Part shown: in pieces, positions 40,003-46,779 of the stretch | Layout of the letters: every line of letters begins with the position of its first letter | Position numbering within the stretch: the stretch's first letter is position 1 | NCBI GenBank assembly: GCA_022446795.1 | Contig: JAKVBX010000001.1 | Coordinates: 350,107 to 414,106 of the forward strand | DNA: 64,000 nucleotides | Direction of reading: 5' to 3' | Origin: Phycisphaerales bacterium | GTDB lineage: Bacteria; Planctomycetota; Phycisphaerae; Phycisphaerales; SM1A02 | The notes under the pieces: generated by a model | What the model saw: the letters and a program-made list of their open reading frames with translations, nothing else | Told to the model about the DNA's origin: nothing | Databases searched by the model: none | Translations under genes and position numbers: made by a program

Positions 40003-40878
40003 TCAGCCCGCCCGCTTGTGATCCGCTTGCCGACCGGCGGCCCCGAACACGGGTCGATCGCGGAACGCCTCGCGCAGCCGCTCCAGGGCCGCCTGCTCGA
40101 TCTGCCTCACCCGTTCCCGGGTCAGGCCGACTTCTCGTCCGGCTTCCTTCAGCGTTCGTGGCGACCGGCCATCCAGGCCGAATCGCATGCGAAGGACGCA
40201 GGCCGCCAGGGGCTCGAAGTCCTGCAGGAGTTCACGCATCTTCTCCACGTCCTCGCGTCGCTCCAGGATGATCGTGGCTGGTTCGAAGAGATCATCCGGC
40301 TGCATGTCGACATCCATACCGGTGGACTCATCATCTCGCGCCGTTCCGGTTGAGGCCCCCTGCGTAGCCGCCATCGTCCGCTGGATGACCCGCAGCTTGC
40401 TGCGGGGGACGTTCATGGCATCAGCCAGTTCTTCCGCCGTGGGCGCCCGATCCAGCTTGGCCTCCAGTTCCTTGACCGTCCGGTCCCAGGCAGCCATGCG
40501 CTGACGCATGTAGGTCGGCACATGCAGGTGCTGACCGAACTCCATCACGGCCTGCTTGATCGTCTTGCGGATCCACCACGTGGCATAGGTCGAGAATCGA
40601 TGGCCCAGGGCCGGATCGAATCGCTCGACCGCCCGGATCAACCCGATGTTGCCTTCATTGATGAGGTCCTGCAGCGCCATCCCCTTGCGGAGGTACTGCT
40701 TTGAGATACTCACGACCAGGCGCAGATTGGCCTGGATCATCTTCCGCTTGCAGTCCACGCAGCTGTCGTTGATTACACCCCAGGCAAGGGTCTTCTCTTC
40801 TTCAGCGGAGAGCAGTGCAATGCGGCTGATATCGTCGAGATACAGTTCGAGATCGTTGCGAACGTCAGATCGGCCCAT
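40003..40878 (-). CDS. Sigma-70 family RNA polymerase sigma factor (group 1/2, RpoD-like)
   Basis: Sigma factor of 291 residues. Region 1.2 DLELYLDDISRIALLSAEEE, region 2 NLRLVVSISKQYLRKG and LQDLINEGNIGLIRAVERF, then FSTYATWWIRKTIKQAV. Region 3 is present, and region 4 ends TLKEAGREVGLTRERVRQIE. Region 1.1 is missing and the protein is shorter than a normal RpoD, so it is more likely a group 2 (RpoS/HrdB-like) alternative sigma than the housekeeping one. Met at 40878 is chosen as the first good N-terminus; no clear ribosome site. No anti-sigma gene is adjacent. Confidence 0.92.
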   Translation of the reverse strand: MGRSDVRNDLELYLDDISRIALLSAEEEKTLAWGVINDSCVDCKRKMIQANLRLVVSISKQYLRKGMALQDLINEGNIGLIRAVERFDPALGHRFSTYATWWIRKTIKQAVMEFGQHLHVPTYMRQRMAAWDRTVKELEAKLDRAPTAEELADAMNVPRSKLRVIQRTMAATQGASTGTARDDESTGMDVDMQPDDLFEPATIILERREDVEKMRELLQDFEPLAACVLRMRFGLDGRSPRTLKEAGREVGLTRERVRQIEQAALERLREAFRDRPVFGAAGRQADHKRAG

Positions 40879-41078
40879 ATGGCAAGCCCGCGCACGGTAC
40901 GTGCGAGATGCGGTGGTGTTGGTTGTCGAGGATCGGAGAGAGTGGAGGCGGAGAGGTCGTTCCGCCACTGTCCGTACGGGTTTCCGGCGACAAGGTTCGG
41001 TGCAGGCTCGAATTCAGCCCGTCCGACTGGCCCCCTTTAAAAGGTGCCTAAACGGACCTGGCCGTGGCACAGGTGGCC

Positions 41079-42695
41079 TCAGGCCGGTTCCGCCTTGATG
41101 CCCTGGGACTCGGCCCTCTTCTCAATGCCCCCCAGGAAGATCTCGGCGAGAGCCTCGTAGATCGCCTTGCGGCAGACCAGTCGGGAGCACTCGTAGGCCA
41201 GGATCGACGAGGCAATCAGTGGCAGGGTCACGAATCTCGCATCGGTCATCTCGATCATGATCACGAAGACGGTAATGGGGCTCTGCACCACGCCCGCGAA
41301 GTAGGCCACCATGAACAGCATGATCACGAACTGGGGATCGATCCCCCCGAACACATCGTGGAACAAGTCAGCGCAGAGATTCCCCAGCCCGGCACCGACC
41401 GACAGGCTGGGATCAAAGAGCCCCCCGGGGATCCCACTGATCAGGCTGAAGTAACTGCCCCCGGCCTTCATGAACGGATACCACCAGGGATAGCCCTCGG
41501 GACGGTGCCATTCGTCATAGAACGCCCGTTCCTCCGGATCACCGAGCACGTGATAGGCCGTTTCCACGGCATAGGCTTCCGGATCCAGTTCGTCGGCACC
41601 CGTGAGAAGCGGCTGCCTGTTCTGCCGGGTGTCGTAGGCCGCGTGGATCTCCTCGTGCGTGGCATCCTTCGTCACCCCAAGCGTGCCGTAGAAGTCCGTC
41701 CCGCGATACATCAGGATTGCCTTGGCCTGCGGATAGCCGCTGCCGTAGGACTGTCCTCCACTGGCCAGCCCGATGCCGGCGAGGCACAGGCCAAGGACGC
41801 CGGCGGTCAGGTAGGGATGCTTCCGGACATTTCGCGTCACCACGGGCGTTCCCAGGACCACCCCACGGGCGAACAGGCCTCCGAGGAATCCGCCGATGCA
41901 GGCGATGACCGGCACGGCCAGCCAGTGGATGATGTCGAATCCGAAGTGTCGGTTGATGCTGCCATAGAACAGGTAGTCCCATCCCAGCATGGCGATGACC
42001 ACGAGTGACGCCAGCAGGACCACGCGAACGATGGTGCTGGCGTTGTTCTTGTCGAATGACCGACCGATCTCCTCGAAGGCGAAGATCATCCCGGCAATGG
42101 GCGCGTTGAAGGCAGCGGCGATACCCGCCCCGCCACCACCGAGGATCAGGCCACGCTGCACCAGGTGCTTCGGGAACTTGGTGATCTTCGTGATGCCGTA
42201 CATGAAGCAGGCACCCACGTGCACCGATGGCCCCTCGCGTCCGATCGTCATGCCCGAGAACAGGCCCAGGCACAACAGGATCGTCTTCCCGATCAGGATC
42301 CGCCACGAGAGCATGAACTTCCGGATGGGTCCGTCCTTGACGTGGAGGGACGCAATCGCCTGCGGAATACCGGTGCCCTCGGTTCCTGGGAAGAACCGGT
42401 CACGAACCCGCATGATCACGATCATCGACACGGTGATCAGCACCATGCCCAGCACGACGCCGAGCGTGCCATCCACCTTCCAGCCCATCCACTCGTGCTG
42501 GCCGGTCAGGGCCCGGAAGAACTGGAACCCCCAGATGTCGACCTCTCGGAAGAACAGGGCAAACAGCCCGGTGAGGCACGCCGCCACGATGACGAGCCCA
42601 TGACGCCACCAGGCCATCCAGGAGAACACCGTGGTTCGCCAGAGGTGTGCGTCCTCCAGTTCAGGTGGTGACTGGTTCTCGTGCGGTGTGCTCAT
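41079..42695 (-). CDS. CLC chloride/proton antiporter with an inserted J-domain-like segment
   Basis: Membrane protein of 538 residues. CLC motifs are GTGIP (107-111), GREGP (152-156, gating Glu154), internal proton Glu209 in AFEEIGRSF, and GGLFDP (424-429), so an exchanger rather than a passive channel is likely. Residues 333-397 are an insert not found in normal CLCs, lying between GSGYPQAKAILMY and the GGLFDP filter loop. It reads TDFYGTLGVTKDATHEEI, then AYAVETAYHVLGDPEERAFYDEW, the pattern of a J-domain with helices II and III. The HPD tripeptide is absent (NRQP instead). It sits at the edge of the hsp20 cluster, though separated by an HdeD-like gene. Confidence 0.9.
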   Translation of the reverse strand: MSTPHENQSPPELEDAHLWRTTVFSWMAWWRHGLVIVAACLTGLFALFFREVDIWGFQFFRALTGQHEWMGWKVDGTLGVVLGMVLITVSMIVIMRVRDRFFPGTEGTGIPQAIASLHVKDGPIRKFMLSWRILIGKTILLCLGLFSGMTIGREGPSVHVGACFMYGITKITKFPKHLVQRGLILGGGGAGIAAAFNAPIAGMIFAFEEIGRSFDKNNASTIVRVVLLASLVVIAMLGWDYLFYGSINRHFGFDIIHWLAVPVIACIGGFLGGLFARGVVLGTPVVTRNVRKHPYLTAGVLGLCLAGIGLASGGQSYGSGYPQAKAILMYRGTDFYGTLGVTKDATHEEIHAAYDTRQNRQPLLTGADELDPEAYAVETAYHVLGDPEERAFYDEWHRPEGYPWWYPFMKAGGSYFSLISGIPGGLFDPSLSVGAGLGNLCADLFHDVFGGIDPQFVIMLFMVAYFAGVVQSPITVFVIMIEMTDARFVTLPLIASSILAYECSRLVCRKAIYEALAEIFLGGIEKRAESQGIKAEPA

Positions 42696-42960: not shown

Positions 42961-43569
42961 TCAGCTGGCCGTGGCCATCGCCGGAGGATCTGCTTCGATG
43001 CCGCCGTTGCGCAGGGCATTCCAGGTGGCCACCAGGATCAACCCGAGGAAGAACAACTGGATACCGAAGAGCAGGCCGGGCGCCCAGAGCGCATCGCGAG
43101 GCCACCAGATCACCAGGAGAACGGCCAGCACGATGCTGCCGATGCCGCCGATGAACTGGAGCCCGGGCGCCACGTGTGACCGCGTGGGCATGCCGAAGAC
43201 ATCCATGAGTCCCCGCAGGAAGCACCAGCCCGCGAGAACCAGCGTCACGATCTCCAGGCTCTCGAATGGCCACACGAGGAAAAGTACGCCAAGCCCCCCG
43301 ATGAGCAGCGCATTGACGAGGTTCAGGAGCACCGACTCCGAACCACCCATGAAGGTGCGGGCCAGGAGGACCACGCCGGACAGGATGGACATCCACCCCA
43401 GGATGAGGATCAGGATGGTGGAGGCGATGAAGGGCGAGATGACCATCGCGAAGAGCCCGCACAGCAGGAGCAGGATGCCCTCCACCAGGACGACGCCCCG
43501 GGCTTGCCGCAGGCGTTCACGGATCTCCCAGGGATTGACGCTTCCAACCGACGCGTGAGGTGTTTCCAT
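42961..43569 (-). CDS. HdeD-like (DUF308) six-helix membrane protein
   Basis: Membrane protein of 202 residues with six hydrophobic helices from about 25 to 190 (GVVLVEGILLLLCGLFAMVI; ILILILGWMSILSGVVLLAR; and so on), in the three-pair repeat typical of DUF308/HdeD. In E. coli HdeD is linked to acid resistance, but the mechanism is unknown. AAGGAAGG precedes the ATG. It has its own sigma-70-like promoter (43618-43646), unlike the hsp20 genes upstream, and its mRNA would begin with a hairpin (43594-43611). Its position among chaperone genes suggests a stress role. Confidence 0.87.
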   Translation of the reverse strand: METPHASVGSVNPWEIRERLRQARGVVLVEGILLLLCGLFAMVISPFIASTILILILGWMSILSGVVLLARTFMGGSESVLLNLVNALLIGGLGVLFLVWPFESLEIVTLVLAGWCFLRGLMDVFGMPTRSHVAPGLQFIGGIGSIVLAVLLVIWWPRDALWAPGLLFGIQLFFLGLILVATWNALRNGGIEADPPAMATAS

Positions 43570-43792: not shown

Positions 43793-44206
43793 TCACTCGG
43801 CCCTGACCTCGATAGTTCGTGTTCCCGTCGGCGCCAGCTTCGGCAGCCGAACGGTCAGGATTCCGTCCTTGCAGGTGGCACTGATCTGGCTGACATCAAT
43901 GCCGTCTCCGATTCGGAAGCGGCGATGGAAGTCGCCGATCCCGTACTCTCGATGCAGAACGCGTCCCAGGTTCTCGTACCGGTTGGACACCGTGCTGGTC
44001 ACCTCGAGGGTGTTGTCCTCGACGGAGAGGTCGATGCCGTCCGCCGTGGCCCCGGGCATGTCCGCGACGATGGTGAACTCACCGTCCGCCTCGTAGACGT
44101 CAATCGGTGCCCGGTAGTACTGCGGCCGCTTGGTGACGTTGTCATGGCGAGGGGCCAGGGCGTCGGTGCCGCAACAGGTGTTGTAGTTGGTCATGCTTGT
44201 GTTCAT
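43793..44206 (-). CDS. Hsp20/alpha-crystallin family small heat-shock protein (copy A)
   Basis: Chaperone of 137 residues. A short N-terminus with a CC pair (MNTSMTNYNTCCG) is followed by the alpha-crystallin domain from about 33 (YYRAPIDVYEADGEFTIVADMPG) to the end, with the DGILTVRLPK strand and no usual I-x-I tail beyond TIEVRAE. AGGAG lies seven bases before the ATG at 44206. It follows hsp20 copy B by 55 bp and shares its sigma-54 promoter by inference. It would hold unfolding proteins for DnaK. The intrinsic terminator follows directly. Confidence 0.93.
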   Translation of the reverse strand: MNTSMTNYNTCCGTDALAPRHDNVTKRPQYYRAPIDVYEADGEFTIVADMPGATADGIDLSVEDNTLEVTSTVSNRYENLGRVLHREYGIGDFHRRFRIGDGIDVSQISATCKDGILTVRLPKLAPTGTRTIEVRAE

Positions 44207-44261
44207 GGAAGTGCTCCTACGATCTGCAGGTGTACGTGTTCGTGGTGTTCTCGATTCGGTA

Positions 44262-44693
44262 TCAGCCCTCGGTGACCTGGACTCGACGTGCCTTGGCGTT
44301 TTCGCTCTTGGGCATCGTGAGCAGGAGGACACCTTCACGAAGCACGGCCTCGGTGCCGTTGGCCTCGACGTTGGCCGGAAGCGAGATGGAACGCTCGAAC
44401 TCCAGGTCGCCTCGCTCGCGACGGATCGCATTGGTATCGACCGGAGTCGTCACGGTGCGTCGGCCGCTGATCGTCAGCACGCCGTCGGCCACGGTGACAT
44501 CCACGTCTTCCATCCGGACGCCGGGCAGCTCGGCCTCGACGTACACGTTGTTGTCGTCGTCGATCATGTTGAGCGACGGGTAGGCTCGCGTGCCGGAGTG
44601 GGAGGCAAGGACGTTGTCAAACATGCGTTCCACTTCATTTCGTACGAGCGTCATGGCGTTGCCTGCGGGAGTAAAGAGTGCGCGTGTGTTCAT
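44262..44693 (-). CDS. Hsp20 family small heat-shock protein (copy B), sigma-54-type promoter
   Basis: Chaperone of 143 residues. N-terminal arm includes LVRNEVERMFDNVL, then the alpha-crystallin domain (PSLNMIDDDNNVYVEAELPGV to VLLLTMPKSENAKARRVQV). This is the most conventional Hsp20 of the four. GGAGGT precedes the ATG at 44693. A perfect sigma-54 motif lies at 44796-44812 with tandem inverted repeats further upstream, giving a predicted 92-base leader. It heads a two-gene unit with copy A. Confidence 0.94.
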   Translation of the reverse strand: MNTRALFTPAGNAMTLVRNEVERMFDNVLASHSGTRAYPSLNMIDDDNNVYVEAELPGVRMEDVDVTVADGVLTISGRRTVTTPVDTNAIRRERGDLEFERSISLPANVEANGTEAVLREGVLLLTMPKSENAKARRVQVTEG

Positions 44694-44795
44694 GGCACAC
44701 CTCCGTTTGGTTGTCCGGAAGACCAGTAGGCTTCCGGGTTGAATCTTGTTCGGACACTTTGAAAAACGTTTTCTTCGTGTGTCCATTCCAGGGAA

Positions 44796-44812
44796 TGCAA
44801 GGGCCGTGCCAG
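44796..44812 (-). promoter_or_regulatory. Sigma-54 (RpoN) -24/-12 promoter of hsp20 copy B
   Basis: Minus strand CTGGCACGGCCCTTGCA, a perfect match to TGGCACG-N4-TTGCW. The predicted start is near 44785. Seen directly; function inferred. Confidence 0.75.
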
Positions 44813-44853
44813 TTGTGTTCCGGCGTTTAAGCGGCCCTAAACCGGATGCCAGG

Positions 44854-44886
44854 TGCCGCTTCGGCAGGCGTGCTGCCGCTTCGGCA
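44854..44886. promoter_or_regulatory. Tandem 13-bp inverted repeats, candidate enhancer-binding sites
   Basis: Two identical copies of TGCCGCTTCGGCA (TGCCG-N3-CGGCA) at 44854-44866 and 44874-44886, 20 bp centre to centre (about two helix turns), centred near -75 and -95 from the predicted sigma-54 start. This is the classic position for an activator of sigma-54 promoters. Confidence 0.55.
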
Positions 44887-44910
44887 TGCCCCTTCCAGGG
44901 GCCTTCAAGT

Positions 44911-44940
44911 CGTCCCCCGGGAGCGGACTCCCGGGGGACG
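44911..44940 (-). terminator. Terminator hairpin after hsp20 copy C
   Basis: Perfect 13-bp stem (44911-44923 with 44928-44940) and four-base loop, 48 bases after the stop of copy C. No U-run. A smaller GCCCC/GGGGC hairpin follows at 44888-44902. Confidence 0.6.
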
Positions 44941-44987
44941 AGATCAAGTGCCATTCGACAGGTGGGCGTGTGCCCATTCCGTCACGG

Positions 44988-45941
44988 TCAGGCCACTGCG
45001 GCCACCGTGTTGCGGATTCGGGAAGGGGTTCCCGTGATCGCATTGACCTTGGGCAGGCTGATGGTCAGCACGCCGTTGGTGATGCTCGCCGTGATGTCCT
45101 CGACAGTGATGTCGCGGCCGATGGCGAAGGCACGCTGGTAGATCTTGACCGCGGCCTTTTCCCGGGAAATCGTGGCCACCGGGGTGGTAACGCTGAGGCC
45201 GGGGACGAAGGTCGTGGACTGGGCCACGCCCTTGATCACCAGGATGCCGTTCTCGACGGTCAGTTCGAGATCGTCGATCTTCACGCCGGGGAGGTCGGCG
45301 ACCAGCAGGTACTGGGAGCCGTCATCCAGGACGTCGATCGGCAGATGAGCGATGACCGGCTGGCCGGTGATCGCAGCCTGCTGCGACAGGGCGACGTTGC
45401 CAGGCGTGTTGTAGCCCATCGCATTCATGCCGAGGGTGTTGGCGCCCATGGCATTCATGCCGAGGGTGTTGATCATCGGGCTCACTGACTGGGCGGCGAC
45501 GGCAGGCGTGTTGAGGCCGGAAAGGCCGTTGAAGCTCGAGGCCTGGCCGTTGAAGCCGGTCATCCAGGGGCTGAAGCCCATGGCGGGAGCGGCGTAGGCA
45601 GCCGTGGTCGTGAAGGGATTCACGAAGGACTCGGACTGCCACATGCCCGGGAGCTGGCCCATGAAGGCGTTCTGCCGGGCGTACGGCAGCGTGCTGGCAG
45701 CGAACGTGGCCGGGGTGTTCCAGGCCGAAGCGGCGGACAGATCGGTCATCGCATTCATGCCGGCGAAAGGCATGTTCCAGCTCATGGATGCCGGGGTGTT
45801 CCAGGCGCCGAAGGAGGCATTCATCGTGGGCTGAACGCCGACGAAGTCATAGCCACCCATTCCCAGTGTTGCACCGTTGTTGAAGAGATTCGACTGAACC
45901 TTGTTGGTGCCCGTTTCCTTGACTTGAACTTTGATAGCCAT
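44988..45941 (-). CDS. Hsp20 family protein with a long low-complexity, prion-like N-terminal region (copy C)
   Basis: Protein of 317 residues, about twice the normal Hsp20 length. The alpha-crystallin domain is residues 198-305 (VIAHLPIDVLDDGSQYLLVADLPG to NGVLTISLPK). The first 195 residues are rich in Asn, Ala, Met, Gly and Phe with hardly any charge, and contain four W/L/Y-N-T-P-A/G motifs and two tandem NTLGMNAMG units. Such composition favours self-association or condensate formation. AAGGAG precedes the ATG. It follows the zinc-finger Hsp20 gene by 92 bp, with a hairpin (45992-46010) between. Confidence 0.9.
   Translation of the reverse strand: MAIKVQVKETGTNKVQSNLFNNGATLGMGGYDFVGVQPTMNASFGAWNTPASMSWNMPFAGMNAMTDLSAASAWNTPATFAASTLPYARQNAFMGQLPGMWQSESFVNPFTTTAAYAAPAMGFSPWMTGFNGQASSFNGLSGLNTPAVAAQSVSPMINTLGMNAMGANTLGMNAMGYNTPGNVALSQQAAITGQPVIAHLPIDVLDDGSQYLLVADLPGVKIDDLELTVENGILVIKGVAQSTTFVPGLSVTTPVATISREKAAVKIYQRAFAIGRDITVEDITASITNGVLTISLPKVNAITGTPSRIRNTVAAVA
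45415..45471. repeat. Tandem repeat inside the hsp20 copy C N-terminal region
   Basis: Two near-identical copies of a 27-base unit (one mismatch) with a 30-base period, encoding NTLGMNAMG twice. It marks the low-complexity arm as a product of recent slippage or duplication. Confidence 0.8.
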
Positions 45942-45991
45942 CTCGAAACTCCTTATGAAGAGATGCTTTTCAAACGCGGTCCGAGGGGTCC

Positions 45992-46010
45992 CCCGCGTGA
46001 CGTACGCGGG
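45992..46010 (-). other. Intercistronic hairpin between hsp20 copies D and C
   Basis: CCCGCGT/ACGCGGG, 7-bp stem and five-base loop, 23 bases after the copy D stop. No U-run. It may protect the upstream mRNA or attenuate read-through. Confidence 0.4.
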
Positions 46011-46033
46011 TTCCAGATCGCCTCGGTTTGAAA

Positions 46034-46561
46034 TCAGTTGGCGTTCATTCCCAATACCGCTGCGGCCTCGGGACGCTCGATGGGAAGGACCAGCCGCAGT
46101 ACACCGTCAAGCAGGTTGGCTCGAATGGCACTGATGCGGGTCACATCAACCGCCTCGGGCAACTCGATGATCCGTTCCGTGGCGGGCTGCATCCGCTCGC
46201 GAGCGATCTGCACCGGTGATTCGGGTGCATCCACTCGTGGGAGCGTCCGGATCGTGACGGTTCGTTCCTGGACGGCGACGTCCAGGTCCCGGGCCACGAC
46301 GCCAGGCACTTCCATATCGATGATCAGCCAGCCAGCGGCTTCCACCACCGAGGTGTTGGGGACGACGGTGGGGCGGACCACACCGGTGCCATTGCAGTCC
46401 TGGCACATCAAGGACCCTGTAATGTCCAGGCCCAACAGGCCCGTCGACACCTCGCCCGTGCCCTGGCACGCCCGGCAGGTTGTCGCCTCGGCGTTGGCAA
46501 TAGCGGAGTAGGTCCGTGAATTCGTGGACGTGTTGGTCGGAGCAGTCATCAACGTAGTCAT
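46034..46561 (-). CDS. Hsp20 family protein with a DnaJ-type zinc-knuckle pair at its N-terminus (copy D)
   Basis: Protein of 175 residues. Residues 29-36 (CRACQGTG) and 53-60 (CQDCNGTG) are two CxxCxGxG motifs, the zinc-binding repeat that defines the DnaJ cysteine-rich domain; together four cysteines could bind one zinc. The alpha-crystallin domain follows at about 70-165 (GWLIIDMEVPGVVARDLDVA to GVLRLVLPIERPE). GGGAG lies before the ATG at 46561. First of the hsp20 series. Both domains are clear in the sequence; zinc binding and client transfer are inferred. Confidence 0.9.
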   Translation of the reverse strand: MTTLMTAPTNTSTNSRTYSAIANAEATTCRACQGTGEVSTGLLGLDITGSLMCQDCNGTGVVRPTVVPNTSVVEAAGWLIIDMEVPGVVARDLDVAVQERTVTIRTLPRVDAPESPVQIARERMQPATERIIELPEAVDVTRISAIRANLLDGVLRLVLPIERPEAAAVLGMNAN

Positions 46562-46659
46562 GGTTGTTCTCCCTTGACTGTCTTGGTGGGAGCGGATCCG
46601 ATCCACTCCCGTACTGAAGGCTCGCCGTTCGATCCAGTGGCGAGACGAAACACCACGAC

Positions 46660-46674
46660 ACAACCGGCGTGCCG
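46660..46674 (-). promoter_or_regulatory. Degenerate sigma-54-like element upstream of the zinc-finger hsp20
   Basis: Minus strand CGGCACGCCGGTTGT: the -24 half is nearly perfect, but the -12 GC is GT. The predicted leader is 87 bases, matching dnaK (89) and hsp20 B (92). A second weak candidate with correct GG/GC spacing lies at 46724-46740. Confidence 0.3.
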
Positions 46675-46779
46675 ATTCGCCACGAATCCGAGCGGGAATG
46701 TCACGAATACCCGTTGGCGCTACTGCAAAGCCGGGTCCTGGTAGATGAAAGTCGCCGGCCACGAGAATCGCGGCGGCCC

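Follow-up and report, generated by a model that had tools for sequence, protein, structure and literature searches.

J domains are generally treated as Hsp70 switches, and those of DnaJ and CbpA (PF00226; Thermus DnaJ2, 4j7z) have in common a four-helix fold with the core D-Y-Y-x-x-L ... A-Y ... Y-D. The fold is, however, also found without a working HPD tripeptide or apart from Hsp70, as in Pam16 (Tim16), TbPam18, CJD1, DNAJB13 and chloroplast NdhU. The HPD-less CJD1 failed to stand in for the J proteins of E. coli and was found to interact with a further J-like domain (PMC3196505); TbPam16/18 work independently of mHsp70 (PMC11349236). Known type IV or J-like domains dock onto other proteins or belong to large assemblies; the systems used for comparison come from eukaryotes (with E. 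coli DjlB cited as a bacterial type IV protein), and none of them forms a transporter loop outside the cytoplasm. Additional protein on the outer or luminal face of a CLC transporter has been described separately, i.e., for ClC-7, where Ostm1 is a lid on the luminal face (PMC10662042), and for ClC-5 with its beta-subunit TMEM9. When a 163-residue unstructured stretch is inserted between helices L and M of ClC-5, the protein works, albeit with less current, and is apparently less sensitive to TMEM9 (PMC11962092).

The locus described here lies in a window of 64,000 nucleotides—the whole stretch of DNA that was analysed—from a Phycisphaerales bacterium. A gene at 41079–42695 (minus strand) encodes a 538-residue CLC-type Cl−/H+ antiporter (Pfam PF00654), whose L–M loop contains a 63-residue J-like domain as opposed to the few residues found in ClcA of E. 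coli. Judged by its sequence, the protein is otherwise an ordinary Cl−/H+ antiporter that is predicted to perform coupled exchange. The Voltage_CLC profile covers the product as a full CLC (246.9 bits, E 4e-73), and its structural model aligns with Sll0855 of Synechocystis and ClcA (3nd0 and 1ots) at Z 36–37. Identity to these two proteins is only 21–24%, yet the fold, the gating and internal glutamates and the filter Phe and Tyr are the same: E148, E203, F357 and Y445 of ClcA align with E154, E209, F427 and Y513 of the window protein, and the gating Glu, the internal proton Glu and both filter residues are kept in insert-bearing and insert-free relatives. One difference is a Thr at the position of ClcA S107. 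Promoter and terminator scans returned signals near shuffle level. No CLC with a J domain turned up in literature searches, in line with the first-pass annotation of this DNA, which knew of no described CLC with such an insert; this is not proof, as many subscription papers were outside the coverage. As far as the literature was searched, then, a known transporter and a known fold appear to be combined in a place and role that have not been described.

The inserted segment (residues ~330–401; 41493–41708, minus strand) takes the place of the L–M loop and is absent from the orthologs L021 and L067–L074, while the J-like domain proper comprises residues 334–396 (41508–41696, minus strand), as located by Pfam PF00226, AlphaFold, Foldseek, VIA and hhalign. 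In the full-length protein, the DnaJ profile (PF00226) matches residues 334–394 with 29.8 bits against a gathering cut-off of 27.8; the excised segment reaches 36.3 bits (range given, 34.7–36.3). All 15 inserts from different loci match DnaJ and no other Pfam family, and a profile–profile comparison of the inserts with eight J domains resident in genomes of the order gave a probability of 99.2% (hhalign; E 2e-19, 63 columns). AlphaFold places helices at 335–339, 347–358, 372–385 and 387–396 in the whole protein (block pLDDT ~71–91) and predicts the same four in the isolated domain (mean pLDDT 80.8); the model of the window CLC served to assess fold, not contacts. Because a structure search with the full-length protein gave only CLC chains among the matches listed, the domain was searched separately. 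Its best Foldseek matches are Thermus DnaJ J domains (probability 1.00, query TM-score ~0.7), and J domains fill the VIA-align list with Z up to 10.5 over 64–72 residues—helical bundles can give a Z of this size, but here sequence and structure agree. A genuine J fold with a predicted four-helix structure is thus well supported. Pfam, hhalign and AlphaFold thereby bear out the first-pass annotation, which had marked a J-like segment within the CLC at 41505–41699 and had proposed structure prediction and a comparison with ordinary CLC loops as checks. The four-helix J fold is indeed predicted, and related CLCs (L021, L067–L074) have merely 0–5 residues between the flanks, without J similarity. 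The model and the ClcA alignment also agree with the earlier reading that the insert sits between membrane helices, namely L and M. The coordinates first given are right; the insert had further been placed just before the GGLFDP filter loop, but it is not directly adjacent to it, as helix M intervenes.

Compared with the J domains of DnaJ and CbpA, the insert has neither HPD nor a basic helix II and is part of a membrane transporter, predicted to be periplasmic. The equivalent of the HPD loop is R360-Q361-P362-L363 (41607–41618, minus strand). None of the 15 aligned inserts has HPD; across the clade, this site reads [TPK]-L-[LI], and its Leu (Leu363) never varies. Depending on a one-residue gap, the residues facing HPD are R360-Q361-P362, Q361-P362-L363 or P362-L363, so the earlier statement that RQP replaces HPD is right about the absence of the motif, whereas RQP is only one of several possible registers. 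In E. coli DnaJ, the helix II residues R22, K26 and R27 contact DnaK (PMC10349383). Their counterparts in the window insert are H351, D355 and T356, and mean helix II charge is −0.7 in the inserts versus +2.8 in resident J domains, with the L001 insert as an exception (+3); over the whole domain, the values are ~−7 and ~−3, respectively. Judged by its sequence, the insert is unlikely to be an Hsp40/J-domain co-chaperone, which would carry HPD and a basic helix II. As a J fold without HPD, it is a putative type IV or J-like domain. One of the options first put forward for this segment, a J-like fold that is structural and no longer contacts Hsp70, is thereby supported.

The topology of CLC proteins is established and puts the L–M loop outside the cytoplasm. 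In ClC-5, the loop between these helices is extracellular or luminal (PMC11962092). Within the window's family, K and R account for 20–25% of the loops expected inside (D–E, F–G, H–I, J–K) and for 0–7% of those expected outside (B–C, I–J, K–L), and the insert is acidic. CLC topology, the ClC-5 insertion and this positive-inside pattern together suggest that the insert is extracytoplasmic, i.e., periplasmic. A loop facing the periplasm would separate the insert from cytosolic DnaK, a placement that leaves a chaperone tether with little to recommend it and offers a possible reason for the loss of HPD.

A scan of ~85,000 species genomes recovered 14 loci with the gene, all of them in planctomycete metagenome assemblies. 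In the window's family, the insert is carried by 17 Phycisphaerales genomes (17 species, three genera) from a group of marine planctomycetes, which answers the initial question of whether relatives have it, and other genera of this family have close orthologs without it. Its length is exactly 63 residues in 17/17 species, with no loss and no indel. At the junction, L021 reads QADQILI-EGVE-YPWHYP and the window protein QAKAILM-[insert]-YPWWYP. The insert-free loci L107–L109 have the gene order lipA, PilZ-like, CLC, sigma factor, HdeD, hsp20 and ApbE in common, and this synteny indicates that the site is orthologous and empty there. In a tree of the CLC core from which the insert was left out, the 17 carriers fall on one side of a branch with a support of 97/100 and a single change is needed, the bootstrap being not fully settled and the root being set at the midpoint. 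It is well supported by these sequence comparisons that the J domain would have been gained once, in the ancestor of the three genera; repeated gains or losses within the family were rejected on the strength of the same tree. An eighteenth carrier, G539 (L134:7852–9456, minus strand), belongs to another planctomycete family and has unrelated genes beside its copy. None of the tested neighbour genes is present at this locus and five relatives from its family are without the gene, so that transfer is favoured. The copy was probably acquired by single-gene horizontal transfer with the domain kept, a binning error being possible; the same observations speak against an outgroup position of G539 by vertical descent.

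Third codon positions take a disproportionate share of the substitutions in the insert. Its dN/dS is ~0.1–0.45 compared with 0.02–0.2 for the CLC core, and these values are rough since dS is frequently close to saturation. The insert has changed several-fold faster than the core and is under purifying selection, looser than that on the transporter. Residues of the J core that are invariant include Y336, L339, A345, A353, Y354, A380, L384, R390, Y393 and D394; the likewise invariant Y330, R331, T333, L363 and W396 are clade-specific and untypical of resident J domains.

We propose that an antiporter already encoded beside stress genes gained a J domain once and in frame in its L–M loop. Since the loop would face the periplasm, the domain would have been cut off from cytosolic DnaK, and HPD and the basic face of helix II may then have decayed with the J core kept. 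The outcome would be a J-like module that works independently of Hsp70 and caps the antiporter next to its outer mouth. It may dock a partner in the periplasm or the membrane, or else the second subunit of the dimer, with docking stabilising or tuning transport. That the insert lost the Hsp70-triggering motif yet kept its exact length and fold suggests that it has been reused beyond chaperoning, and its retention in the apparently transferred G539 copy, which has no stress neighbours, counts for a docking module. We give an even chance to this reading, in which a captured J domain, freed of Hsp70, has been retained outside the cytoplasm as a cap or docking module by which an otherwise normal antiporter is tuned or stabilised. 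HPD-less J-like domains that work without Hsp70, such as CJD1 and TbPam16/18, count in its favour. A docking or capping role would also have parallels in ClC-7/Ostm1 and ClC-5/TMEM9, where extra protein likewise covers the outer or luminal face, as predicted for the window CLC. Ostm1 and TMEM9 are separate beta-subunits, however, whereas the extra domain of the window CLC is in cis and has a J fold. More tentatively, and with a good deal of doubt, the J fold moved outside could be a built-in regulatory CLC subunit in cis, comparable to Ostm1 or TMEM9. If true, this would be the first known case of an ion transporter controlled by a J-like domain on the periplasmic side. The insert kept the fold and lost the switch on what is predicted to be a side of the membrane where no Hsp70 is expected, and would be an example from bacteria of a J fold put to new use without Hsp70.

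The strongest rival to a docking or capping role is passive insertion, whereby the J fold merely folds well outside and has no specific partner or regulatory effect. J folds are small and stable, evolution faster than that of the core would fit a mere spacer, and the same loop of ClC-5 tolerates an even longer, unstructured insertion (PMC11962092). Yet a spacer would hardly be expected to show neither loss nor indel across 17 species, to have invariant residues untypical of resident J domains or to be retained after an apparent transfer, and we consider passive insertion possible but on the unlikely side. Closely related orthologs have an empty site at this very locus, so that a clean swap could show what the domain does to a CLC antiporter.

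The genes around the CLC bear on two further explanations. Downstream lies a sigma-70 family factor (RpoS/RpoD-like; 40003–40968, minus strand; Pfam and NCBIfam), which adjoins the CLC in all insert-bearing loci of the family that reach that far and in the insert-free L107–L111. A frequent neighbour is an HdeD/DUF308 membrane protein (42961–43569, minus strand; Pfam DUF308, NCBIfam HdeD family below cut-off), and four Hsp20/alpha-crystallin genes (43793–46762, minus strand; Pfam HSP20) are conserved neighbours, with synteny both with and without the insert. This Hsp20/HdeD/sigma cluster recurs throughout the family, and one sub-clade has the whole block in inverted orientation; the Hsp20 cluster also flanks the insert-free orthologs L107–L110 and is missing around G539. 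Since hsp20, HdeD and sigma genes flank insert-free orthologs too, these neighbours predate the insert and say nothing of what it does. They suggest when the antiporter is used rather than the role of the insert.

A pH or ion sensor, akin to the pH or stress sensor that the first-pass annotation had listed among its options, would be an acidic, often His-bearing domain that shifts its shape or docking with external pH or ions and thereby gates the antiporter in acid stress. ClcA has a known role in acid resistance, which counts for such a sensor, as do the charge of about −7 and the HdeD-like and RpoS-like neighbours. We nevertheless regard it as improbable: the stress neighbourhood is older than the insert and missing around G539, apart from J core positions, neither a His nor an acidic cluster is invariant, and the open sea is pH-stable. 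Far less probable still is a chaperone tether, an option of the first-pass annotation, by which the antiporter would recruit Hsp70 or Hsp20. The Pfam DnaJ match and the adjacent Hsp20 genes speak for it, but topology and charge pattern predict the domain to be on the wrong side of the membrane, and HPD and the basic helix II are gone. Proximity to hsp20 genes, suggested at the time as a check, does not discriminate, as they adjoin insert-bearing and insert-free CLCs alike, and with the cluster present at L107–L110 and missing at G539 we rejected this neighbourhood as a sign of a chaperone role. Nothing was found in favour of chance similarity or of an artefact of annotation or assembly; this explanation has a negligible probability and was rejected, given an in-frame insert that recurs in independent assemblies of 17 species, synonymous-biased substitutions, the uniform DnaJ matches and the hhalign E-value.

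Some smaller observations concern the same genes. The four Hsp20 genes are consecutive, some of their ORF starts overlap, and they adjoin the HdeD-like and RpoS-like sigma genes. In L001 and L014, the HdeD-like gene is missing between hsp20 and the CLC; it is present in the other complete loci. In the Hsp20 protein encoded at 46034–46762 (minus strand), the alpha-crystallin domain is preceded by a pair of CXXCXGXG motifs like those of the DnaJ zinc finger (motif near 46477; Pfam below cut-off). A motif search did not find the pair in L002–L013 and found it in L001 and L014. Finally, further weak J-domain matches (29–46 bits) occur in frames of 174–263 aa in related genomes, including G167:C1:2348212-2348403, G360:C60:38156-38350 and G053:C16:34646-34840, and possibly represent diverged J-like proteins.
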